Below, in pieces: positions 3,057 through 16,602 of a DNA stretch of 64,000 nucleotides. This DNA comes from Halobacterium wangiae (GTDB lineage Archaea; Halobacteriota; Halobacteria; Halobacteriales; Halobacteriaceae). The DNA is taken from the NCBI RefSeq assembly GCF_021249345.1, contig NZ_CP089588.1:1240001-1304000 (forward strand), written 5' to 3'. A program made the translations under genes and the position numbers. The notes beneath the pieces were generated by a model, which did no database searches, had not been told where the DNA came from, and was given only the letters and a program-made list of their open reading frames with translations. The stretch's first letter is position 1. Every line of letters begins with the position of its first letter.

Positions 3057-3093
3057 AGCGCTTAACGGCCTGCCCGGTGGCAGTTTACGTGAT
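3057..3093 (+). promoter_or_regulatory. Probable mdh promoter
   Basis: A CGCTTAAC TATA-like element around 3058-3065, preceded by a purine-rich GAA, sits about 30 bases before the mdh ATG. This is the spacing of leaderless haloarchaeal genes. It is a sequence-based inference only. Confidence 0.5.
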
Positions 3094-4008
3094 ATGACGA
3101 AAGTCAGCATCGTGGGGGCCGCCGGCACCGTCGGCGCCGCCGCAGGCTACAATCTCGCGCTCCGCAACGTCGCCGACGAGCTCGTGTTCGTGGACATCCC
3201 CGACAAGGAAGACGAGACCGTCGGGCAGGCCGCGGACGCGAACCACGGCGTCGCCTACGACTCGAACACCGAGGTGTACCAGGGTGACTACGAGGACACC
3301 GCGGGCTCGGACGTCGTCGTCATCACGGCGGGCATCCCGCGCCAGCCCGGCCAGACCCGCATCGACCTCGCGGGCGACAACGCGCCGATCATGGAGGACA
3401 TCGGCTCCTCGATTGCCGAGCACAACGACGACTTCGTCACCGTCACGACATCGAACCCCGTCGACCTGCTCAACCGCCACCTCTACGAGACGGGCGACCG
3501 CGACCGCAACAAGGTCGTCGGCTTCGGCGGCCGCCTCGACTCCGCGCGGTTCCGCTACGTGCTCGGCCAGCGCTTCGACGCGCCCGTCCAGAACGTCGAG
3601 GCGACCATCCTCGGCGAGCACGGCGACGCCCAGGTCCCGGTGTTCTCGAAGGTCCGCGTGAACGGCACGGACCCCGACTTCGGCGACGACGAGAAGGACG
3701 AGATCCTCGGCGAACTGAAGACGTCCGCGATGAACGTCATCGAGAAGAAGGGCGCGACCCAGTGGGGTCCCGCGACGGGCGTCGCCCACATGGTCGAGGC
3801 CATCCTCCGGGACACCGGCGAGGTGCTCCCCGGCTCGGTCGTCCTCGACGGCGAGTTCGGCCTCGACGACGTCGGTCTCGGCGTCCCCGTGAAACTCGGG
3901 AGCAACGGCGTCGAGGAGGTCGTCGAGTGGGACCTCACGGAGTACGAGCGCGACCAGCTCGGCGAGGCCGCCGAGAAGCTCTCCGAGCAGTACGACAAGA
4001 TCTCGTAG
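3094..4008 (+). CDS. mdh: Malate dehydrogenase (LDH-like family)
   Basis: A 304-residue, full-length enzyme of the [LDH-like] MDH family that interconverts malate and oxaloacetate with NAD(H) in the cytoplasm (TCA cycle). Visible are the Rossmann loop [15 protein letters not shown], with Asp ending strand 2 (FVDIPDK, favouring NAD), the substrate loop [21 protein letters not shown], the catalytic His in GEHGD (about residue 176) and the [18 protein letters not shown] helix. The strongly acidic composition and length match the well-studied haloarchaeal MDH. The start is the ATG at 3094, 30 bases after a TATA-like element. A strong hairpin plus T-run follows the stop. Confidence 0.96.
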
Positions 4009-4440: not shown

Positions 4441-4650
4441 CTACCGGGCGGTGTCGATGCCCGCGACGCGGTTCACCGGGCACTTCCGGGTCGTCCCCGT
4501 CAGGACGAGGATGGCTCCCGCGAGGAACAGCGTCAGTCCGACGACGACGCCGGCCCAGACGCCGGCGAACGCCGCGGCGCTCGCGAGCACGAGCACGACG
4601 CCGACCACGAGGCGAGCGGTGCGGTCGAAGCCGCCGACGTTTCGGTCCAT
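4441..4650 (-). CDS. Small membrane protein, DUF2892/YgaP-TM type
   Basis: A 69-residue protein with two hydrophobic helices separated by a short turn (LVVGVVLVLASAAAFAGVWA and VVVGLTLFLAGAILVLTG). It has the N-terminal MDRNVGGFDRTAR and C-terminal TTRKCPVNRVAGIDT typical of DUF2892 proteins (consensus start NVG..DR..R, end CP.....G). It is an inner-membrane protein of unknown role; relatives are often fused to rhodanese domains. It lies 40 bases downstream of the ferredoxin gene on the same strand, so they may be one transcript. Confidence 0.85.
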   Translation of the reverse strand: MDRNVGGFDRTARLVVGVVLVLASAAAFAGVWAGVVVGLTLFLAGAILVLTGTTRKCPVNRVAGIDTAR

Positions 4651-4692: not shown

Positions 4693-4941
4693 TCAGGGGA
4701 TGAGCTGTTCGCCGTCGTCGTCGTACACCGTGATGGCGTCGACGGGGCACGCCCGCGCCGCGAACTTCGCGTCCAGTTCCGCGTCCTCGGGCACCTCCCG
4801 CGAGAAGACGTCCTCCTCGGTCTCCTCACCATCGACGAGAACCGCTTTCCCAGCGTCCATGTCCTTCTCGAAGCCCTCCTCCCACTCCGCGACGCACTGG
4901 AACATTCCGATGCAGGTGTCCCGGTCGTACTCGATTCGCAT
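4693..4941 (-). CDS. Ferredoxin, single-cluster three-cysteine type
   Basis: An 82-residue acidic ferredoxin. Cysteines are seen only at 10, 16 and 65 (TCIGMFQC and RACPVDAI), so the cluster motif is C-x5-C...CP with no second cysteine between them. That arrangement is typical of [3Fe-4S] ferredoxins, or [4Fe-4S] ones with a non-Cys ligand. It probably serves as a small cytoplasmic electron carrier; no partner oxidoreductase is next to it. The start ATG fits the conserved MRIEYDRDTC beginning. A closely similar but broken copy of its first 25 codons lies at 13412-13486, in the same orientation. Confidence 0.9.
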   Translation of the reverse strand: MRIEYDRDTCIGMFQCVAEWEEGFEKDMDAGKAVLVDGEETEEDVFSREVPEDAELDAKFAARACPVDAITVYDDDGEQLIP

Positions 4942-4985
4942 AGCTGACTGTCGGAACGGGAGGGGGAAAGCGTTGGCGGGGCGGC

Positions 4986-7900
4986 TCAGTCGCGACAGCC
5001 GAGGTAGACGGCGGCGGCCGCGAGCGCGAGGAGCGCGAGCACGGCGAGTGCGACGGCGTCCTGACCGGCGCCGACGTCCGCCGAGGGTTCGGTCGTCGCC
5101 GCTGTCGTCGTACCGGGCGACTGTGCGGTGGTGGTCGTTCCAGCGGTGGTCGTCGGTCCCACGGTGGTCGTGCCCTGGGTCGTCGGAGCGGCGCGGGTCG
5201 CGACGACGAACACGGAGAGACCCGGTGCGGTCGCCTCGTAGACGACGCTGTCGGCGGTCTCGTCCACGACGCGCGTGTCGATAGCGCCCCACGCCCCGTC
5301 GTGGTGGCGGTAGAGCGTCACGTCGTCGGGCTGGACGCCGCGGTCGGCGAGCGAGTCGCGCGCGACGGTGAAGCGGAAGGTGGCTCCCGTGATGCGGTCG
5401 TCGGGCACGGACGGGTGGGCGACGTCGATGTACGCGACTGAACGCTGGCCGGCGACGGCGAACGTCGCGCCGCCCGCGGGCGGTGAGTCGGACGCGGACA
5501 CGCTGAGTGCGACGTCGCCGTCGGTGGTGGGCGTGACCGCGAGCGAGTCGAGGGAGACGCCGGCTGCGCCGAGTTCGCCAGCGGGGAACCCGATGGTCGC
5601 GGGCTGGTCGGCGCGGGCGTCGGTGACGGTGGCGTCGAAGCCGGCGTCGCCGAGCGACGTGACCGTCACGGCGGGTGCGGGTGCCGCAGGTCCGCTGCCG
5701 CCTGAGCCTGTCGATGGTGAGTCGCCGTCGGAGCCACCCGCCGGACCGCCTGACGACGGGCTGCCGCCGCTGTTCGCCGGTGCTGCGACGGTGAACGAGA
5801 CGACCTCTGTGACGCTGTTCCCGAGTTCGTCCACGACGGTCACCTCGAGCTGGTGGCTGGAGCCGTCGGCGAGCCCGGTGGCGGCGTACTCGACCGAGCT
5901 GCTCGTGATCGTGGTCGCGCCGTCGGTGGTGACGTCGGTGCCGTCGAAGAGGACGGCGGTCCGGTCGGCGTCCACGCCGGCAGGCGCGTCCGCGAAGTCG
6001 ACCCGGAGCGTCGTTGCCGTGGTGCCGGCGGCGAACTCGTGGCCGTCGACGGGGGTCGACGAGGTGATGGTGGGCGGGGTGGTGTCGGTGACGACCGCGC
6101 CGTACGTCGAGAAGTGCGTGACGGTGGCGACCCAGTACCGGCCGGTCGTGCCGTTCAGCGTGACGTTCTCGATGGTCGTCGGGACCCGCGTCCACTGACC
6201 TCTCGTCTCGTTGAAGTACCGGAATCGTACGTCGTCTCCGTCGGCGCCCTGCGGGAGCAGCGACGGATCGACGGGGATGCCGATGACGGCGTAGCTGAGG
6301 TTCCCGGTGAGTCGCTTGTCGAGTGCAGCGTCGAGGAACTGCAGGCCGGCCTGCCCGCGGACGAGCGGCGCGACCGGTACCTTGCTCTCCGTCATGGTGA
6401 CGAACGTGTCGTTGACGGAGCGGTTCGTGTTGAAGCGGACGAACAGCCCGGAGGGCTCCATCTGGACCGTGATGGTGTTGTTCGTCGTGTTCGCGGTGGT
6501 GAGCCGGGTGGTCGCGGTGTCGCTGCCGCGGTTCCCGGCGAGGTCGAGTGCGGTCACCGAGAGCCCGTACTGGCCGTCCGCGGGGGTGGCGAAGGTCCCG
6601 TTCCAGTGGTCGCCCTCGTCGGTCATCGTGACCGTCACGACGTTGCCGTCGGGCCGCTCGACGTCGACCGAGAGCGTTCCGTTCAGGAGGGGTTCGCTCG
6701 ACCTGACCGTGACGTTCGCGTTGCTCGCATCGAGCCGGGTGACGGACGCCGCGAGCGGTGGCGGCGTCCGGTCGACCACGACGCTGTCGTTCACCGTGAC
6801 GGTTCGCCAGTTACCCCGGCTGTCGGACGCCAGCACGGTCACGTCGTACTCGTCCTCGGCGAGGGCGGAGACGTCCACGGTGGTCGTCCAGTTGCCAGTG
6901 GTCCCGTTCTCGCTCGCGAACGCCGAGGCGGTGTCGCCCGCCGTCCGGGCGTTCAGGGTGACCCGGACGTCCTGGACCGTCCCGTGCGCGTCGGTGGCGT
7001 CGACCTCGAACGCGACCGTCTCGTTCTCGTAGACGACGGAGCCGTTCGGGTTCGAGTCGTCCGCGTACGAGCCGGTCACGTTCACCGCGTGGATGGTCGG
7101 GTCGGCACCGTCGTAGCTCGTCCCGGCGAGCGTGACGTTCACGGCCTCCTCGCCCGGGCTGTCGCTGTGGACCGTCAGCGTCGCCTCTGACGCGCCGAGT
7201 CCCGTCGGTGCGTACTCGACGACGAACGCGTTGGTGCCGCCGTAGCCGAGGACGTCGGTCGCGTTCCCACCGACGACAGCGAAGTCGGTCGCGTTCGGCC
7301 CGGAGAGCGTCGCGCCGGAGACCGTGAGGTTCAGGTCACCGACGTTGGCGACGGTGAGCGTCTCCCGGGCAGTCGTGCCGGCCGGGACGGTGCCGAAGTC
7401 GACCTCGTCTCTGGCGATGGCGACGTCGGCGGTACCGGTGGTGGACGCGTCGACGACGGTGATGGTCACCGTCCCGCCGGCGGCCTGCTCGCCGTGTTCG
7501 TCCTCGACCCAGTACGTGAAGCTGTCGACGCCGACGAAGTCCGGGTCCGGCGTGTACTCGAACCCGCCAGTCACGGAGAACCGATTGAGGTCGCCGTGGC
7601 TCGGATTCCCGTGGTACTTCGTGACCACGCCGTCGCCGTCGAGGTCGTAGTCGTTCGCGAGCACGCCCGGCGCGCTCACGTCTAGCGTCTCGCCCTGGAG
7701 GACGACGTAGTCGTCCGGGACGGGTTCGGGCGCGCGGTTCGGGTCCGGGAGCACCGTGACGGTGACGACCCCGCCAGCGGCCGTCGCACCGTGTTCGTCC
7801 TCGACCCAGTAGGCGAAGCTGTCGGTCCCCGTGAAGCCCGGGTCGGGGCGGTACTCGAACCCGCCAGTCACGGAGAACCGGTTGAGGGTGCCGTGGCTCG

Positions 7901-10900
7901 GGTTGCCGTGGTACTTCGTGTCCACGCCGTCGCCGTCCGGGTCGCGGTCGTTCACCAGCACGCCCGGCGCGCTCACGTTCAGCCACTCGCCCTCCGTGAC
8001 GGTGTACGTGTCCGCGACAGCGGTCGGCGCGCGGTTCCCGGTCGCGTCGGGGTCCGGCACGACCTCGATGGTGACGACCCCGCCGGCGGTCTGCTCGCCG
8101 TGTTCGTCCTCGACCCAGTACGTGAACGAATCCGTCCCCGTGAAGCCCAGGTCCGGCGTGTACTCGAAGCCCCCGTTCACCGAGAACCGGTGGAGGGTCC
8201 CGTCGTCCGGGTTACCGTGGTACTTCGTGTCCACGTCGTCGCCATCCGGGTCGTAGTCGTTGGCGAGCACGCCCGGCGCAGAGACGTTCAGCCACTCGCC
8301 CTCCGTGACGGTGTACGTGTCCGCGACAGCGGTCGGCGCGCGGTTCCCGGTGGTGTCCGGGTCCGGGAGCACCTCGACAGTGACGGTGGCGGCCGTCAGG
8401 GACTCGTTCCCGTTCGCATCGTCGATCACGTAGGTGAACGTGTCGGCCCCGGTGAACCCCTCGTCGGGGCGGTACTCGAAGCCGCCGGTCACGGAGAACG
8501 TCTGGAGGTCACCGTGGCCCGGGTTCCCGTGGTACTTCGTGGTTATCGAGTGGTTTCGCGGGTCGACGTCGTTCGCGAGTACGCCCGGCGCGCTCACGTT
8601 CAGCCACTCGCCCTCGTAGACGGTGTAGTGGTCGTCGACTGCGACGGGGTTCGTCGCGTTCGGGTCGACCACCTCGACGGTGACGGTCCCGATGCCGGCC
8701 TCCGCACCACGCTCGTCCTCGACCCAGTACGTGAACGAGTCAGTCCCCGTGAAGCCCTCGTCGGAGAGGTACTCGAAGCCGCCCGGCCCGTAGAACCGGT
8801 GGAGGGTGCCGTCGTCCGGGTCACCGTGGTACTTCGTGTCGACGCCGTCGCCGTCGAGATCGTAGTCGTTGGCGAGCACGCCCGGCGCAGAGACGTTCAG
8901 CCACTCGCCCTCGAGGACGGCGTAGTGGTCGTCGAGGGGCGTCGGCTGCCAGTTCTCCTGGACGACGACGGTGACGGTCGTGTAGCTGGTCTCGCCGTCC
9001 TCGTCCTCGACCCAGTAGACGAAGCTGTCGGTCCCCGTGAAGCCCTCGTCGGAGAGGTACTCGAAGCCCCCGTTCACCGAGAACCGGTTGAGGGTGCCGT
9101 GGCTCGGGTTGCCGTGGTACTTCGTGTCCACGTCGTCCCCGTCCTGGTCCCAGTCGTTCGCGAGTACGCCCGGCGCGCTCACGTTCAGCCACTCGCCCGG
9201 CGCGACGGTGTACGTGTCCGCGACAGCGGTCGGCTCGCGGTTCTGCGGCGGGAGCACCTCGATGGTGACGGTGGCGTACGCGGTCTCGCCGTCCTCGTCC
9301 TCCATCCAGTAGCCGAACGTCTCGGTGCCGGTCTGCCACGAGTCGGCCCGGTACTCGAAGCCGCCCGTCACCGAGAACCGGTGGAGGTCGCCGTTCTCCG
9401 GGTCGCTGTGATACTTCGTGTCGAGGTCGTCCCCGTCCGGGTCGCGGTCGTTCACCAGCACGCCCGGCGCGCTCACGTTCAGCCACTCGCCCGCGTGCAC
9501 CGAGTAGTGGTCGTCGGTCGCGTCCGGCCCGCGGTTCGAGTCCGGCAGCACCTCGATGACGACCCGACCCAGGGTCGAGGAGCCGGCCGCCTCGTCCTCG
9601 GCCCGGTACGTGAACGAGTCCGTCCCCGTGAAGCCCGGGTCGGCCGTGTAGTTGAAGCCGCCACTGGCGCGGAACGACGCGAGCGTGCCGTTGCCCGGCT
9701 GGACGTAGCTGGGTGCGTCGATGGTGTCGTCGTCCGGGTCGAGGTCGTTCGCTAGCACGCCCGGCGCGCTCACGTTCAGCCACTCGCCCTCGTAGACGAC
9801 GTAGTAGTCGGTCGCCGTGACCGGTGCACGGTTCTGCTCGGCCCCGTTGCCCCGGATCGAGACGGAGACGTACGTGTCGTTGGTCGAAATCGGCAGCGAC
9901 GTGGCGGCGGGCCCCTGCCTGAGCGGAGCGAACCGGACCGTGACGTTGTGCGTCTCACCGGGCGCGACGACCGTCGAACCACCGCCGGAGACGACGCTGA
10001 ACGTCAGGAACGACGTCTCGAACGACGCGCCGTGGACAGCGAGCGGAGCATCGCCGTCGTTCCCGATGGTGACGTTGGCCGTGGCGGCCGACCCCACCGA
10101 CACGTTCCCGAAGTCGAGCGAGGACGGCGTCACGGTGACGCTCGGGGTGGGCACGCCCGTTCCCGACACGGAGACGCCGACCGACGGCGCCTCGGGGTCG
10201 TCGGTGAGCACGTTCAGGTTCGTGCCGAGCGAACTCTCGGTCTCCGGCGCGAACGAGACCGTGAACTCGTGGGAGTCGCCGACGGCCAGAACCCGCGACT
10301 CGTTCCCGGCGGTGACCTCGAACGCCGAGTGACCCGAGTTCGTCACGCCGTCGTAGCTCAGCGGTCCTGCGCCGTCGTTGGTGAGGGTGACGTTCGTCGT
10401 CGCGGTCTGCCCGACGGGGACGTCGCCGAAGTCGTAGCTCGTGGGTGTGACGGAGGCGTTCGGTGCCGGGGCGACGCCCGTACCGGTGAGCGTCCCCGTC
10501 AGTGCCCCCGAGAACAGCGTGTCGACCTCGAGCGTTGCCGTCCGCGTCCCGGACGCGGTCGGCGCGAACCGCAGCCAGATCGTCGCGCTGTCGCCGGGGT
10601 TGACGTTCGTCTGCGAAACGCTCAGGATGGAGTAGTCGCCCGGGTGCGTCCCGGAGAGCTGCGCGCCGTCGAGGTAGAGGGTCTCGGTTCCCTCGTTTTT
10701 CACCTGCACGAGGCGGTCGAGGTGGTCGCCGGTGTCCACGTCCCCGAAGTCGAGAGTCGTCTGCGAGAGGACCGGGTCCGCGGAGGCTTCGGTCACGGTC
10801 ACCTCGACCGGCGGCAGGCCCTCGATGGAGACGTCGTAGGTTCCGACCGCGTCCGGTGTCCACGTGAACTCGACGGTCTCGGTGTCGTAGAAGCCGGTGC

Positions 10901-12389
10901 CGACCTCAGCGGACGTCGTCTGCTTCACGACGCCGTCGACGGTGAACTCGGCCTCGTAGGAGCAGGCCGAGTCGGCGAGGTTCTCGACGGTGGCGTTGAC
11001 CGTCACCTGCTGACCGACGGCCGCGTCGGTCGGGTACGCGCCCAGGTCGTAGTAGTCGAACAGCACGCGTTCGGTGGCGGTCTCGCCGCCGTCGAGCGCG
11101 TACAGGGTGTGGGTGTACGAACTGTCGTTCAGACTAGCGACGAGCAGCCGGCCGTCGGCGACGACGGGCCGGAACGGCACCTCGGTCCCGGCGTGGTAGC
11201 GCCACGCGAGGTCGCCGGTCGTCCCGTCGACGGCGAGCACGTCCCCACGGCGCGTGCCGGCGTAGACGACGCCGTCCGCGACGGCGGGTGCGAGCGCGAC
11301 CATCCGGCCGTGGCTCAGGCCGTAGTCGAGGCTGCCGGAGAGCCGGTGGAGCCACCGCTGCTCGCCGGTCGTGGCGTCGAGCGCGCGGACAGTGTGGCCC
11401 GAGGAGACGTAGACGGAACCCCCGGACGCCGCGGCCGCAGTCGGCCGATCGTTCAGGTCGTGGATCCACTCGACGTGGCCGTCGGTGGCGTCGAGAGCGT
11501 ACAGCTTCGGGTCGTGGGTCTCGGTGCCGCCGCCGACGTAGACCGTGCCGTTCACGAGCGTCGGCGTCATCGAGACGACGCCCTCGACCTCGAACCGCCA
11601 GCGCTCGGAGCCATCCGACGCGTTCAGCGCGTAGACGGAGTGCTCGCGGGCGAAGCCGTCGTCGACGCGCGCCGTCGCGTAGACGGTGTCGCCGTGTGCA
11701 GCGAGGCCGCCCGTGGACGCGCCGGCGTAGCTCCGCCACCAATCCTCGCTGCCGGTCCGGAGGTCGAACGCGTGGAGGCGCACCCCGCTGCCGTACGTGG
11801 CTTGCTCGGCGTAGAGCGTGCCGTCGGCGACGACTGACGACTGCACGTCGAAGTCGGTGTTGTTCCAGAGCTCGGTACCGTTCGCAGCGTGGAACACGTA
11901 CAGCTCGTCCCAGTACGGGCTGGTGGCGACGACGAGGTCGTCCGAGACCGATACCCTGTCGGCTCTGACGCCGGTGACGTTCCAGAGCTCGGTGCCGGTT
12001 TCGTTGTCGAGCGCGCGGAGGCTGCTGTCGCCCGGCACGAACACGCGGCCGTCGGCGACGACTGCGGGGTTCTGGTCGTGGTCGTCGTACTCGTGAATCC
12101 AGCGGGCGTCGACCGCCGTCTTCGGGCCGACGACGTCGGTCGCCCCGGATCGGTTCGCGTCGTGGCCGGCGGTCGGCCAGTCGCCCGAGGAGGGTGGGTC
12201 GTCGATGGCCGCCGAGTCGCCGACTGTGGCGGGCTCGGAGAGCGACGCGGTACCAGCCGGCGACGTCGGCGAGTCGAGCGCGCCAGCTGTCCCCGCCGCA
12301 ACCGACGAGACGACGAGAAGCGTCGCCACGAGCGTCGCAAGCACCTGCTCCGTTCGGATGTGTCTACACGAGAAGGGGCCTGTTGCCAT
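4986..12389 (-). CDS. Giant secreted PQQ/tandem-repeat surface protein
   Basis: A 2,467-residue predicted cell-surface protein. Order: signal peptide (1-41, hydrophobic core LATLVATLLVVSSVAAGTAG), PQQ/WD-like beta-propeller (about 50-435), CARDB-like domain (440-530), three ASPM/SPD-2/Hydin (ASH) domains (533-840, FGDV and FGNV strands), eight tandem cadherin-like repeats of about 100 residues (853-1645), a fourth ASH domain, Ig-like modules, a PGF-pre-PGF domain (about 2235-2400), a Thr-rich linker and a C-terminal membrane helix. Many N-x-T/S sites suggest heavy N-glycosylation. The chosen ATG directly precedes the signal peptide; the frame runs open upstream. It is likely an adhesin or surface receptor, with function inferred only from architecture. 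It diverges from a regulator that may control it. Confidence 0.9.
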   Translation of the reverse strand: MATGPFSCRHIRTEQVLATLVATLLVVSSVAAGTAGALDSPTSPAGTASLSEPATVGDSAAIDDPPSSGDWPTAGHDANRSGATDVVGPKTAVDARWIHEYDDHDQNPAVVADGRVFVPGDSSLRALDNETGTELWNVTGVRADRVSVSDDLVVATSPYWDELYVFHAANGTELWNNTDFDVQSSVVADGTLYAEQATYGSGVRLHAFDLRTGSEDWWRSYAGASTGGLAAHGDTVYATARVDDGFAREHSVYALNASDGSERWRFEVEGVVSMTPTLVNGTVYVGGGTETHDPKLYALDATDGHVEWIHDLNDRPTAAAASGGSVYVSSGHTVRALDATTGEQRWLHRLSGSLDYGLSHGRMVALAPAVADGVVYAGTRRGDVLAVDGTTGDLAWRYHAGTEVPFRPVVADGRLLVASLNDSSYTHTLYALDGGETATERVLFDYYDLGAYPTDAAVGQQVTVNATVENLADSACSYEAEFTVDGVVKQTTSAEVGTGFYDTETVEFTWTPDAVGTYDVSIEGLPPVEVTVTEASADPVLSQTTLDFGDVDTGDHLDRLVQVKNEGTETLYLDGAQLSGTHPGDYSILSVSQTNVNPGDSATIWLRFAPTASGTRTATLEVDTLFSGALTGTLTGTGVAPAPNASVTPTSYDFGDVPVGQTATTNVTLTNDGAGPLSYDGVTNSGHSAFEVTAGNESRVLAVGDSHEFTVSFAPETESSLGTNLNVLTDDPEAPSVGVSVSGTGVPTPSVTVTPSSLDFGNVSVGSAATANVTIGNDGDAPLAVHGASFETSFLTFSVVSGGGSTVVAPGETHNVTVRFAPLRQGPAATSLPISTNDTYVSVSIRGNGAEQNRAPVTATDYYVVYEGEWLNVSAPGVLANDLDPDDDTIDAPSYVQPGNGTLASFRASGGFNYTADPGFTGTDSFTYRAEDEAAGSSTLGRVVIEVLPDSNRGPDATDDHYSVHAGEWLNVSAPGVLVNDRDPDGDDLDTKYHSDPENGDLHRFSVTGGFEYRADSWQTGTETFGYWMEDEDGETAYATVTIEVLPPQNREPTAVADTYTVAPGEWLNVSAPGVLANDWDQDGDDVDTKYHGNPSHGTLNRFSVNGGFEYLSDEGFTGTDSFVYWVEDEDGETSYTTVTVVVQENWQPTPLDDHYAVLEGEWLNVSAPGVLANDYDLDGDGVDTKYHGDPDDGTLHRFYGPGGFEYLSDEGFTGTDSFTYWVEDERGAEAGIGTVTVEVVDPNATNPVAVDDHYTVYEGEWLNVSAPGVLANDVDPRNHSITTKYHGNPGHGDLQTFSVTGGFEYRPDEGFTGADTFTYVIDDANGNESLTAATVTVEVLPDPDTTGNRAPTAVADTYTVTEGEWLNVSAPGVLANDYDPDGDDVDTKYHGNPDDGTLHRFSVNGGFEYTPDLGFTGTDSFTYWVEDEHGEQTAGGVVTIEVVPDPDATGNRAPTAVADTYTVTEGEWLNVSAPGVLVNDRDPDGDGVDTKYHGNPSHGTLNRFSVTGGFEYRPDPGFTGTDSFAYWVEDEHGATAAGGVVTVTVLPDPNRAPEPVPDDYVVLQGETLDVSAPGVLANDYDLDGDGVVTKYHGNPSHGDLNRFSVTGGFEYTPDPDFVGVDSFTYWVEDEHGEQAAGGTVTITVVDASTTGTADVAIARDEVDFGTVPAGTTARETLTVANVGDLNLTVSGATLSGPNATDFAVVGGNATDVLGYGGTNAFVVEYAPTGLGASEATLTVHSDSPGEEAVNVTLAGTSYDGADPTIHAVNVTGSYADDSNPNGSVVYENETVAFEVDATDAHGTVQDVRVTLNARTAGDTASAFASENGTTGNWTTTVDVSALAEDEYDVTVLASDSRGNWRTVTVNDSVVVDRTPPPLAASVTRLDASNANVTVRSSEPLLNGTLSVDVERPDGNVVTVTMTDEGDHWNGTFATPADGQYGLSVTALDLAGNRGSDTATTRLTTANTTNNTITVQMEPSGLFVRFNTNRSVNDTFVTMTESKVPVAPLVRGQAGLQFLDAALDKRLTGNLSYAVIGIPVDPSLLPQGADGDDVRFRYFNETRGQWTRVPTTIENVTLNGTTGRYWVATVTHFSTYGAVVTDTTPPTITSSTPVDGHEFAAGTTATTLRVDFADAPAGVDADRTAVLFDGTDVTTDGATTITSSSVEYAATGLADGSSHQLEVTVVDELGNSVTEVVSFTVAAPANSGGSPSSGGPAGGSDGDSPSTGSGGSGPAAPAPAVTVTSLGDAGFDATVTDARADQPATIGFPAGELGAAGVSLDSLAVTPTTDGDVALSVSASDSPPAGGATFAVAGQRSVAYIDVAHPSVPDDRITGATFRFTVARDSLADRGVQPDDVTLYRHHDGAWGAIDTRVVDETADSVVYEATAPGLSVFVVATRAAPTTQGTTTVGPTTTAGTTTTAQSPGTTTAATTEPSADVGAGQDAVALAVLALLALAAAAVYLGCRD
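7450..9830 (-). repeat. Eight tandem cadherin-like coding repeats
   Basis: This is a repeat array inside the giant surface-protein gene. Each unit is about 290-310 bases and begins with a conserved GEWLNVSAPGVLANDxDPDGD segment, followed by TKYHGNPxHG, GGFEY and GTDSFTYWVEDE. The eighth unit (nearest the C terminus) has ETLDVSAPGVL instead. The Asp-rich DPDGDD loops could bind calcium, as in related VCBS/tandem-95 repeats. Core motifs lie near 7670, 7960, 8270, 8580, 8880, 9170, 9460 and 9760. High nucleotide similarity between units makes the copy number prone to change by recombination. Confidence 0.92.
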
Positions 12390-12524
12390 ATGATAACCGC
12401 ATGACGCAGTCACGCTCCCTATATGCATCCACCGCACGTCGTTCGGCGAGCGGACGACGTCCGGAACGTGGAACGCGTTCCACGAGAGGAAACAGCTTTG
12501 ATGTGTGCCTGCGCGGGAACTGTA

Positions 12525-13319
12525 ATGGCCGCCGAGACGCCCGAAGGAGGGGACAACAGTCTCCCGATCGAGAGTATCAAGCGGGCTGATACGCTCGACG
12601 CGCTCCACGAGGGGGCGATGGACCGCGCCGACCTCATGGCGACGCTGGACGTGTCGCGGACGACCGTCCACCGCGTCGTCCGAGCGCTGGAGGGCCGGGG
12701 CCTGATCGTACAGGACGGCAGCGAGTTCCGACTGACACCGCTCGGGCGGGCGGTCGCCGCCGAGGTCGCGTCGTTCCGCCGGGGCGTCCGGACGGCCAGT
12801 CGACTCGAGCCACTGCTGGAAGCGGTCGGCGACGACGCGGCGGCCATCGACGTGTCGCTGTTCGAGGACGCCACTGTCACCACGATGGCACCGACGAACC
12901 CCTACGGGCCGGTCGGCCGGTTCATGGAACTCCTGGTCGCGTCGCCGAGCCTCCGCGGGTTCGACACGACGACCATCGCGCCCGTGTTCGTCGACAACAT
13001 CCGCGACGAGATACTCGGCGGGATGGAGGTCGACGTCGTCTACCTGCCCGCCGTCGTCGACGCCGTGGTCGACAGCTACCCCGACGAGGTCCGCGCCGCG
13101 GTCGACTCCGGGCGGCTGACGCTTTCCACCCACCCCGACCTCCCGTACGGGCTCGCGATCTTCGAGGACCGGATCGGCGTCGGCGGGTACGACGCCGAGA
13201 CCGGGATGCTCCGGGCGTTCGTCGACACGAGCGACCCCGCCGCACGGGAGTGGGCGCTCGCCGAGTACGAGCGCTACCGCGAGGAAGCGACGGTACTGGA
13301 CCTGTCGGCGGAGGAGTGA
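12525..13319 (+). CDS. Winged-helix regulator with FilR1/DUF1724-like domain
   Basis: A 264-residue predicted transcription factor. Residues 15-75 form a winged helix (MDRADLMATLDVSRTTVHRV as the HTH, LIVQDGSEFRLTPLG as the wing). The rest is the alpha/beta ligand-type domain seen in haloarchaeal FilR1/DUF1724 regulators. It is transcribed away from the giant surface-protein gene across 135 bases, so control of that gene and itself is plausible but unproven. The start chosen is the ATG at 12525; an in-frame ATG at 12501 would add MCACAGTV, which looks less likely. The ligand is unknown. Confidence 0.82.
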   Translation: MAAETPEGGDNSLPIESIKRADTLDALHEGAMDRADLMATLDVSRTTVHRVVRALEGRGLIVQDGSEFRLTPLGRAVAAEVASFRRGVRTASRLEPLLEAVGDDAAAIDVSLFEDATVTTMAPTNPYGPVGRFMELLVASPSLRGFDTTTIAPVFVDNIRDEILGGMEVDVVYLPAVVDAVVDSYPDEVRAAVDSGRLTLSTHPDLPYGLAIFEDRIGVGGYDAETGMLRAFVDTSDPAAREWALAEYERYREEATVLDLSAEE

Positions 13320-13411
13320 TCGCGCCGAACTCGCATCCGGCACGCGTCCACGGGACCCTCGCGCCAGCCCTCCGCTGGGTCGGTCGCGCCGAGTGACGAC
13401 GCACTCTCTCT

Positions 13412-13486
13412 GTCGATTTCGACGCCCTCCTCCCACTTCGCGACGCACTGGAACGTCCCGGTGCAGGTGTCCCGGTCGTACTCGAA
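13412..13486 (-). pseudogene. Ferredoxin fragment (25 codons)
   Basis: On the minus strand the sequence reads FEYDRDTCTGTFQCVAKWEE then GVEID. It matches residues 4-28 of the intact ferredoxin at 4693-4941 almost residue for residue, including both N-terminal cluster cysteines. The start codon is gone (CTATTC replaces ATGCGAATC) and downstream the frame becomes unrelated (RESASSLGATDPAEGWREG). It has the same orientation as the intact gene, with the giant surface protein and its regulator between them. It looks like a decayed duplicate or a scar of an insertion or recombination. Confidence 0.8.
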
Positions 13487-13560
13487 TAGTGGTCTGCGGC
13501 AGCCCCGGGGTAGATCGTTGCCGGGGACGAGAACGACCACCCCTGCACGTCCGCCCCGAC

Positions 13561-13594
13561 AGTTTAAACCGCGGGACGTGCCTATCCCGGTCCA
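13561..13594 (+). promoter_or_regulatory. Probable hel308 promoter
   Basis: The palindromic AGTTTAAACC (13561-13570) is a good TATA-box candidate 25-30 bases before the hel308 ATG, consistent with a leaderless transcript. Confidence 0.55.
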
Positions 13595-15958
13595 ATGAAC
13601 GTCGCGGACATCTCGGGGCTGCCCGAGGGGGTCGCCGAGCACCTCGAGAGCGAGGGCATCGAGGAGCTCTACCCCCCACAGGCGGAGGCCGTCGAGGCGG
13701 GCGCCACCGAGGGCGAGAGCCTCGTCGCCAGCGTGCCGACTGCGAGCGGGAAGACCCTCATCGCGGAACTGGCGATGCTGTCGGCCATCGAGCGCGGCGG
13801 CACGGCGCTGTACATCGTGCCGCTGCGCGCGCTCGCCGGCGAGAAGGCCACCGAGTTCGAGGCCTTCGAGCAGTTCGGCATCTCGGTGGGCGTCTCGACG
13901 GGGAACTACCAGAGCGACGGCGAACGGCTCTCGGACAACGACATCGTCGTCGCCACCTCCGAGAAGGTCGACTCGCTCGTGCGCAACGGCGCGGGCTGGA
14001 TCGACGACCTGGCCTGCGTGGTCGCCGACGAGGTCCACCTCGTGGACGACCAGCACCGCGGCCCGACCCTGGAGGTGACGCTCGCGAAACTCCGTCAGCG
14101 CGTGCCCGACCTCCAGGTCGTGGCGCTGTCGGCGACGGTCGGGAACGCCGACGAGATCGCCGACTGGCTGGACGCCGCGCTCGTCGACACCGACTGGCGG
14201 CCCATCGACCTGCGGACGGGCGTCCACTACGGGCAGGCGGTCCACTACGACGACGGCACCCAGGAGGAGCTCTCGGTGGGGTCAGGGAGCCAGACCGCGG
14301 CCGTCGTCGCTGATACCCTGAAGGACGACGGCTCGACGCTCGTGTTCGTGAACTCCCGGCGGAACGCCGAAGCGGCGGCCCGCCGGCTCTCGGACGTGAC
14401 GAAGGGGTCGCTGAGCGCCGACCAGCGCGACCGCCTCCGCGAGGTGGCCGAGGAGATCCGGGGCGTCAGCGACACGGAGACGAGCGACGACCTGGCGGAC
14501 GCCGTGGCGAAGGGCGCGGCGTTCCACCACGCGGGCCTCGCCCGCGAACACCGCGAACTCGTCGAGGACGCGTTCCGGGAACGCCTCATCCGCGTGGTCG
14601 CGGCGACGCCGACGCTGGCGGCGGGCGTGAACACGCCCTCGCGACGGGTCGTAGTGCGGGACTGGCAGCGCTACGACGGCACCGCGGGCGGGATGCAACC
14701 CCTCTCGGTGCTCGAAGTCCACCAGATGTTCGGGCGCGCGGGCCGCCCGGGCCTCGACCCGTACGGGGAGGCCGTCCTCCTGGCGAACGGTCACGACGAA
14801 CTGGAGGAGCTGTTCGACCGCTACATCTACGCGGAGCCCGACCCCGTGCGCTCGAAACTCGCGGCCGAGCCGGCGCTCCGGACGCACGTGCTGGCGGCCG
14901 TCGCGACGGGGTTCACAACCACCGAGGAGGCGCTCCACGAGTTCCTCGGGGAGACGCTGTACGCCGCCCAGACAGACGATCCGAGGCGCCTGGAGAGCGT
15001 CACGCGGGACGTGCTCGCCTACCTGGAGGCCAACGAGTTCGTCGAGCGGGAGAACGGCGCGCTGCGCGCGACCACCACCGGGCACCTCGTGAGCCAGCTG
15101 TACGTCGACCCGATGAGCGCGGCGACGCTCGTGGACGGACTGCGGGATGCCGCACGCGCGGCCGAGCGAAGCGAGGCCGCGGACGGAGCGAGCGGCGAAG
15201 CCGCGAGCCGCGCGGACGAGGCTGGCGGGCCGTTCCAGACGGCCAGCGACCTCCAGACCGAGGCGGAGCCGATTCCCGAGGACGTCGACGTCGAACTGAC
15301 GCCGCTCGGGCTCTACCACCTCGTGAGCCGGACGCCGGACATGTATGAGCTCTACCTCCGGTCTGGCGACCGGGAGACGTACACGGAACTGGCCTACGAG
15401 GTCGAGGACCAGTTGCTCGGCCCGGCGCCCCGAGAGGAGGAGGCCCACTGGGAGGACTGGCTGTCGGCGCTGAAGACCGCGAAGCTCCTCGACGACTGGG
15501 CCTCGGAACTCGACGAGGACCGCATCGCGGAGCGCTACGGCGTCGGGCCGGGGGACATCCGCGGGAAGGTCGAGACGGCGGAGTGGCTGCTGAACGCGAC
15601 CGAACGGCTCGCCGCCGACATCGGCGTCGGCGCGACCGCGGTCCGGGCGGCCCGCAAGCGCGTGCAGTACGGCGTCCGCGAGGAGCTACTGGACCTCGCG
15701 GGCGTCAGGGACGTCGGCCGGAAGCGCGCGCGACGGCTGTACGAGGCGGGCATCGAGACGCGGGCGGACCTCCGGAACGCCGAGAAGAGCGTCGTCCTGG
15801 GCGCGGTCCGGGGGCGCCGGAAGACGGCCGAGCGCATCCTGGAGAACGTCGGCCACCCGAACCCGGACCTGACGGACGTCGACGCGGACGCAGACACGGT
15901 CGCGGCGGTCGAGGAGAGCGAACGCGACGGGCAGGCGAACCTGGGGGACTTCTCGTGA
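13595..15958 (+). CDS. hel308: ATP-dependent DNA helicase Hel308 (Ski2 superfamily)
   Basis: A 787-residue superfamily 2 helicase that unwinds lagging strands at stalled forks. Seen: [11 protein letters not shown] (Q-motif region), Walker A TASGKT (about residue 50), DEVH (about 144), [37 protein letters not shown], and GRAGRPG in motif VI. A winged helix, ratchet domain and C-terminal HhH ([19 protein letters not shown]) follow. Length is slightly above archaeal relatives because of a low-complexity insert around residues 520-545 encoded by hairpin-forming DNA (15157-15210). Its TGA overlaps the GTG of cgi121, so they are translationally coupled, a pairing I recall as common in haloarchaea. 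Confidence 0.95.
15157..15181 (+). repeat. Hairpin-forming repeat inside hel308
   Basis: CGCGGCC (15157-15163) pairs with GGCCGCG (15175-15181) around the loop GAGCGAAGCGA. The downstream bases contain further GCGGC/GCCGC pairs. It encodes the Ala/Glu/Ser-rich insert [20 protein letters not shown] of the helicase. The loop resembles those of non-coding hairpins after mdh (4013) and in 41621-41842, suggesting a dispersed element that has entered a coding region. Confidence 0.55.
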
Positions 15959-16437
15959 GAGTCGTCGAGGGCGTCGCGAGCGTCGACGACGTGGACGCGT
16001 TCGTCGCCACCCTCGGCGACGTCGGCGACGAGCACGGTTGTGCGGTGCAGGCGTTCGACGCGGACTACGTCGCGGACCGCGCGCACCTCGAGTCCGCCGT
16101 CGCGCACGCGAACCGGGCGTTCGAGCGCGGGGAGAACGTTGCCAGTGACCGTGCAGTCGAGATTCTGCTGTACGCGGCGGGCCGCCGCCAGATTCGACGC
16201 GCGCTCGCGATGGGCGTCGACGAGGGCGAACACGAGGTAGTCGTCGTCGTGGATGGTGAGAACGAAGCGGCCGCTGCGAGCGCGGTCGCGGACCTGCTCG
16301 ACGAGCGGGCGACCCTCGGCGGGGACCCGGCGGCGCTGCGAGAGTTCTTCGACGTGAGCGACGACGAGTACGCGGTCGTCGACGACCTCTCCGGGGTCGT
16401 CCGGGAGCGCGTGGCGCTGCTCGACGTCGAGAAGTGA
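15955..16437 (+). CDS. cgi121: KEOPS complex subunit Cgi121
   Basis: A 160-residue protein of the Cgi121/TPRKB family, the KEOPS subunit that binds tRNA and Bud32 during threonylcarbamoyladenosine (t6A) synthesis. Recognisable parts are the early [19 protein letters not shown] region and the [20 protein letters not shown] helix with MGVDEG, plus the C-terminal domain [11 protein letters not shown]. The start is GTG at 15955, overlapping the hel308 TGA (GTGA). Other KEOPS genes are not in the window, so the link to Hel308 is by co-transcription only. Confidence 0.9.
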
Positions 16438-16455
16438 GGCGTGCTCGCACACCAC

Positions 16456-16478
16456 GTTCCAGTCGAAACGAAGGGGTC
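16456..16478 (+). other. Origin-recognition-box-like element, intergenic
   Basis: The sequence GTTCC followed by AGTCGAAACGAAGGGGTC in the gap after cgi121 is nearly identical to the ORBs around orc1 about 40 kb away (box at 55981-56003). A weaker half-copy (CTCCAGTCGAAACGG) lies near 16559. Binding of Orc1 here is an inference from sequence alone. Confidence 0.6.
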
Positions 16479-16602
16479 GCGTCGCCGCGCTACCCCACGG
16501 TTTCGCGTGCCAGAAGGTAGTGAGGAGGTCGCTGGGACCGCGAGCCGTCGGTGAGTTCTCCAGTCGAAACGGCGCCCGCGGAGAGCAGACGAGCGTCAGA
16601 CG

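Follow-up and report, generated by a model that had tools for sequence, protein, structure and literature searches.

A giant surface-protein gene and its regulator, probably gained horizontally, sit inside a duplicated ferredoxin 5' end in Halobacterium wangiae

Introduction

In a 64,000-nucleotide stretch of Halobacterium wangiae DNA (the window), a ferredoxin gene and a short piece of a ferredoxin gene lie on either side of a giant surface-protein gene and a regulator gene. How did this arrangement arise, and was its central part brought in from elsewhere? An earlier note on this DNA had read the locus as the product of a duplication or insertion at the ferredoxin gene, and had taken its contents for a mobile or transferred module. 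The locus shows how haloarchaeal surface genes move between microbes: its scar lets the acquisition of a surface-protein cassette be read almost base by base, and the empty site is found in related genomes. Furthermore, the insertion adjoins a probably important electron carrier, the promoter region of which differs from that of its relatives, and joint inheritance of the giant gene and the regulator makes the target of the regulator testable.

Results

The intact gene (4693..4941, minus strand) encodes an 82-residue ferredoxin of the single-cluster 4Fe-4S type (Fer4_15, Fer4_13; PF13459, 4.9e-23), with 98% amino acid identity to the ferredoxin of the nearest relative, G008. A whole-genome search with the protein (E ≤ 0.001) gave two places only, the full-length match of the intact gene and a decayed 5' fragment at 13411..13485 on the minus strand. 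The two copies form a 75-bp direct repeat (4860-4934 and 13411-13485, ungapped, 67/75 identical), in line with the likeness and shared orientation noticed earlier; to the G008 gene the fragment matches at 66/75. The local alignment score of the repeat was 55. Shuffling 200 times never gave more than 16, and no other tile of the window exceeded 17.5, which rules out a chance match. The fragment is not a working second ferredoxin gene, since it holds the 5' 75 nt only and has no ATG; a gap of 5 nt covers the start region in the alignment. The genus also has distant paralogues of this ferredoxin, but at only 38-44% amino acid identity these were rejected as the source of the fragment.

Only two genes lie between the copies, at 4986-12389 (minus) and 12525-13319 (plus), just as the earlier note had it. 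The first (4986..12389, ATG start, TGA stop) encodes a giant surface protein of 2,467 residues. With its domains assigned by Pfam, it comprises an N-terminal hydrophobic stretch, a PQQ propeller, HYDIN/ASH Ig-like domains, Big_9/cadherin-like repeats (eight of about 300 nt each, at 7444-9837), a threonine-rich stalk and a C-terminal hydrophobic stretch. The hydrophobic ends suggest that the protein is secreted and membrane-anchored. The start is most likely at 12389, and the program-made reading frame of 2,897 residues (4986-13679) overruns it. The second gene (12525..13319, plus strand) encodes a 264-residue winged-helix regulator of the FilR1/HVO_A0261 type, which combines the HVO_A0261_N and FilR1_middle domains in one protein (PF08350, 2.3e-30; PF25213, 3.2e-22; values computed on a longer frame from 12423, the start at 12525 being set by comparison with homologues). 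The starts of the two genes bound a divergent intergenic region of 135 bp (12390..12524). The spacer from the giant-gene stop to the ferredoxin start is 44 bp, and that from the regulator stop to the fragment 91 bp.

To the left, the ferredoxin gene faces a malate/lactate dehydrogenase gene identified by Pfam (mdh, 3088..4008, plus strand), which adjoins the ferredoxin in 21/21 fetched loci of relatives. A gene for a YgaP-like membrane protein (PF11127) lies between the two at 4441-4650 of the window; tblastn against these 21 loci did not find it. On the other side, the fragment is followed by the hel308 helicase gene (Pfam; 13595..15958, plus strand), a conserved neighbour in the family. We surveyed 26 family genomes for both genes, using E ≤ 1e-20 for ferredoxin (found in 22) and E ≤ 1e-120 for hel308 (found in 25). 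Both were found in 22 genomes and are divergent neighbours in 18 of these, this genome included. The gap between them is 82-600 bp in 16 genomes, 2,066 bp in G009 and 8,653 bp here. In the other four (G004, G005, G012 and G019), ferredoxin and hel308 lie about 150 kb apart or on separate contigs.

The empty site, ferredoxin next to hel308 without the cassette, is thus present in 17 of the 21 other family genomes that have both genes. The earlier note had proposed looking for exactly this order as support for an insertion, and G008 is among the genomes that show it. In G008, whose hel308 is 96% identical, the gap is 593 bp, of which about 485 bp is DNA absent here. Two intact ferredoxins at unrelated loci, named beforehand as the contrary outcome, did not turn up; no relative has more than one close ferredoxin (75-98%), and further matches are remote, at 38-44%. 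Two side observations concern hel308 itself: in G001 (L025 2549-4698) its match falls into two overlapping frames, perhaps through a frameshift or assembly error, and in G005 (L054 9624-13544) an intein interrupts the gene (Intein_splicing, 3.6e-20; LAGLIDADG_3, 4e-14).

The fragment, the block upstream of it and hel308 form a continuous alignment with each of three relatives: G001 (L025) over 13431-15690, G003 (L032) over 13431-16602 and G007 (L028) over 13419-16477. Because of these three alignments, we take the fragment to be the ferredoxin 5' end in its ancestral place; the corresponding ferredoxin is intact in all three relatives. On the other side, the 3' end of the intact gene faces mdh, as in relatives. 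With both ends in their old places, the cassette must sit inside a duplicated ferredoxin 5' end.

Could the cassette instead be ancestral and have been lost in all relatives? A manual count on the alignment gave about 7 private changes in the 75 nt of the fragment, which is close to the neutral expectation for one lineage after the separation from G008 (half of the fourfold-site difference of 0.158 given below) and would suit an old arrangement. The same count indicates that the insertion event is not very young. However, short gaps occur in 16 of the 18 adjacent genomes, four of them compact (82-103 bp), and many independent clean losses would be needed, which makes ancestral presence highly improbable.

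The spread of the cassette was examined with a 416-residue C-terminal piece of the giant protein as query. Within the family, the piece matched this genome twice and G016 at 33%; the other 12 genomes of the genus all lack it, and G016 was the sole match among the 25 other family genomes. In the order, 53 of 392 genomes matched at E ≤ 1e-25. Leaving this genome aside, the closest six (54-58%) are G156, G281, G195, G320, G104 and G306, from three other families. Close homologues are found in three other families and none in its own, and it is this distribution, not composition, that argues for a foreign origin.

In 6/6 of the closest homologues, a FilR1-type regulator (39-65% identity) divergently adjoins the giant gene; none was seen beside the G016 match or a second G104 locus in the stretches fetched. 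When the regulator was searched alone, the best four matches outside the genome were the partners in G306, G281, G195 and G156, and the fifth place went to a truncated second pair in the genome itself. The G104 partner ranks far lower (45%) and the G320 partner did not appear at the 1e-60 cut-off. We conclude that the FilR1-type regulator and the giant haloarchaeal surface gene are passed on as a pair.

The second match of the giant piece in this genome (710216-711457, 57%) belongs to that truncated pair (C1:709331-712231; L050 9331-12231), from which the facing parts of both genes are gone. Its site differs in G008: the common gene order ends at L050:9256 and resumes at 15068, and neither the regulator nor the giant gene was found in the corresponding G008 stretch. 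Small trees joined the two pairs of this genome, with support of 0.855 for the regulator and 0.869 for the giant piece. In view of this modest support, we consider two separate gains, an old duplication in this lineage and a joint acquisition equally possible. A contig scan with the giant protein yielded 19 stretches matching the pattern, none of which was confirmed.

Direct repeats at both ends, one intact and one truncated, are the usual signature of site-specific integration. The ferredoxin 5' end could have served an integrase as its attachment site, with the gene then restored by the element, as happens with tRNA-targeting elements, and the repeat found here, with one intact and one truncated copy, has that form. 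However, neither an integrase nor a transposase is encoded between the ferredoxin copies, where the two cassette genes are the only ones; the tRNA scan gave one tRNA, about 10 kb away. The homologous cassettes do not have a common end sequence and adjoin other genes: the sequences after the stop codons of seven homologous pairs had nothing in common with this cassette beyond a reversed-sequence control, and among the flanking genes of homologous cassettes common neighbours occurred only in L090 and L091. Thus, of the two features of a tyrosine-recombinase integrative element, the locus has the repeat with one intact copy and lacks the integrase inside, and we consider such an element very unlikely.

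Insertion of a transposon or IS was rejected, there being no transposase and no inverted repeat of at least 18 nt joining the cassette ends. GC content in 1-kb windows is 0.68-0.74 in the insert and 0.66-0.73 in the flanks, so the compositional difference that is frequent, not required, in acquired DNA is absent. The earlier suggestion of a mobile or transferred module thus holds for transfer; for mobility, neither a gene nor an element end was found at the locus.

The regions upstream of the two ferredoxin copies carry information on how the cassette entered. A motif scan of the ancestral ferredoxin/hel308 divergent intergenic region (13486..13594, 78/92 to the G001 gap) located the genus block CGGCAACGATCTA on the ferredoxin side and TTTAAAC on the hel308 side. 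We scanned 12 ferredoxin loci of the same genus, the intact copy of the window among them. In 10, the block, as CGGCAACGATWTA with slight variants, is placed 37 nt ahead of the ATG; it is missing from the intact copy of the window and from G009. The genus block is present upstream of the fragment, and the intact gene has a diverged promoter-like block in its 44-bp upstream region (4942..4985, minus strand). This region matches that of G008 at 26/44 positions ungapped, exceeding the null distribution (mean 13.6, maximum 24 of 6600).

We compared this divergence with the fourfold-site differences between this genome and G008, which are 0.158 for hel308 and 0.133 for mdh. In gapped alignment, the intact-copy upstream region differs from G008 at 15/43 positions (p = 0.0017 against 0.158, a value that depends on 43 bp, the way gaps are placed and a neutral rate from one gene, hel308, with counts derived from alignments and scores). 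The fragment upstream region differs at 8/43 (p = 0.37 against 0.158). The region before the intact gene is a recognisable ferredoxin upstream region that is more diverged than neutral descent predicts. It may originate from a donor ferredoxin, or may have changed under a new role. Its match to G013, of genus g2, is 29/44, compared with 24 to G014 of the same genus and 26 to G008, and the likeness to G013 is suggestive only. With one promoter pattern searched in 392 genomes, no donor carrying the cassette directly upstream of ferredoxin was found; nine genomes match at up to 3 mismatches, and only the own site matches with 0.

A purely local event would have duplicated the ferredoxin 5' end and promoter during cassette capture, by a staggered break with fill-in, by template switching or otherwise during end joining; both copies would then be native and the promoter of the intact gene changed later. 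The coding parts of both copies do look native. That of the intact gene shows no foreign sign, with 78/81 positions identical to G008 in the first 81 nt and 153/168 in the remainder, and codon 5 is TAC in both copies and in G001, and TTC in G008. A version of the promoter block upstream of both copies also agrees with a local origin. On the other hand, the 15/43 differences exceed the neutral level in a region where constraint is expected, and 75-120 bp would be a long duplication for a staggered break. We give the local event a minority share of the probability, ranking it next after one-sided homologous recombination with a donor ferredoxin, the favoured route, to which we assign about even odds.

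At the same junction, G009 (L027 10118-11997) carries a two-gene insert that is a possible defence pair. The first gene encodes an AAA_15 ATPase (PADLOC AriA, 1.3e-25; PDC-M38A, 1e-24) and the second a 201-residue protein (PDC-M38B, 1.4e-5) with a weak OLD-like TOPRIM match (0.042). The genus promoter block is absent upstream of the G009 ferredoxin. A frame of 136-150 residues containing CPHEFQRF was observed between ferredoxin and hel308 in G025 (L057 7655-8167) and G024 (L096 8210-8757), with a similar start in G023; by eye it is Rieske-like, and its 60-residue pieces had no Pfam match. The G009 insert at this junction, the missing block in G009 and the roughly 485 bp of other DNA in the G008 gap raise the idea of a family insertion hotspot for surface-protein and defence-like cassettes, where incoming DNA would restore ferredoxin with its own promoter and so rewire it each time. 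We regard this as a doubtful extension of the present case.

Discussion

The best explanation is that a horizontally acquired two-gene cassette was inserted, in this lineage, into the ancestral order mdh / ferredoxin (minus) / hel308 (plus), with partial duplication of the ferredoxin 5' end. This reading, to which we give a probability of roughly 0.85 for the insertion of an acquired cassette and not for the route of integration, is based on the empty site in relatives, the patchy spread of the cassette, the fragment in its ancestral place and the repeat. The proposal of a duplication or insertion at the ferredoxin gene is in the main borne out by the empty site and the ancestral fragment. As a horizontal gain the event is ordinary, such gains being common; what is unusual is how readable its scar is.

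For the acquired cassette, the following course can be proposed. Incoming DNA would have entered the chromosome at the ferredoxin gene. One joint would lie within or beside ferredoxin and give the intact gene, and the other at about codon 27 of the resident ferredoxin. The resident 5' end with its promoter-like block would have been left as a dead fragment beside hel308. By acting on the common intergenic region of 135 bp, the regulator probably controls the surface gene. The intact ferredoxin may now rely on its altered promoter region of 44 bp, or on transcription reading through from the surface gene.

FilR1 and HVO_A0261-type regulators have the PF25213 and PF08350 domains in common with the regulator described here. 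At this locus the regulator stands divergently next to a giant surface gene, an arrangement that is conserved, and its function is a prediction from sequence. Our literature search on Hel308 with ferredoxin and gene order returned no paper.

In Haloquadratum walsbyi, deletion-coupled insertions and strain-specific surface-protein islands have been described (PMC3119063). According to the parts of that study used here, accessory DNA including surface-protein genes is likewise exchanged at set positions within a conserved gene order, with no identified mobility gene. Those insertions are coupled to loss of host DNA and are contrasted with site-specific islands that make direct repeats, and short repeats, mostly under 20 bp, are tied to the deletions (PMC3119063). 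Unlike these cases, the present locus has no apparent host loss and a 75-bp direct repeat with one copy intact. Halomucin, as presented in the same parts of the study, is also a very long haloarchaeal repeat protein (PMC3119063), and export is apparent for the giant protein here. Going by its description there, its domain make-up differs from the PQQ propeller, HYDIN/ASH and Big_9/cadherin-like domains found in this work.

The closest mechanistic parallel to the favoured route is homology-facilitated illegitimate recombination, described for naturally competent bacteria, in which one end joins by homology, the other illegitimately, and foreign DNA is trapped between them (PMC2884548). The intact and truncated ferredoxin copies, judged by their sequences, fit the anatomy that this process leaves behind.
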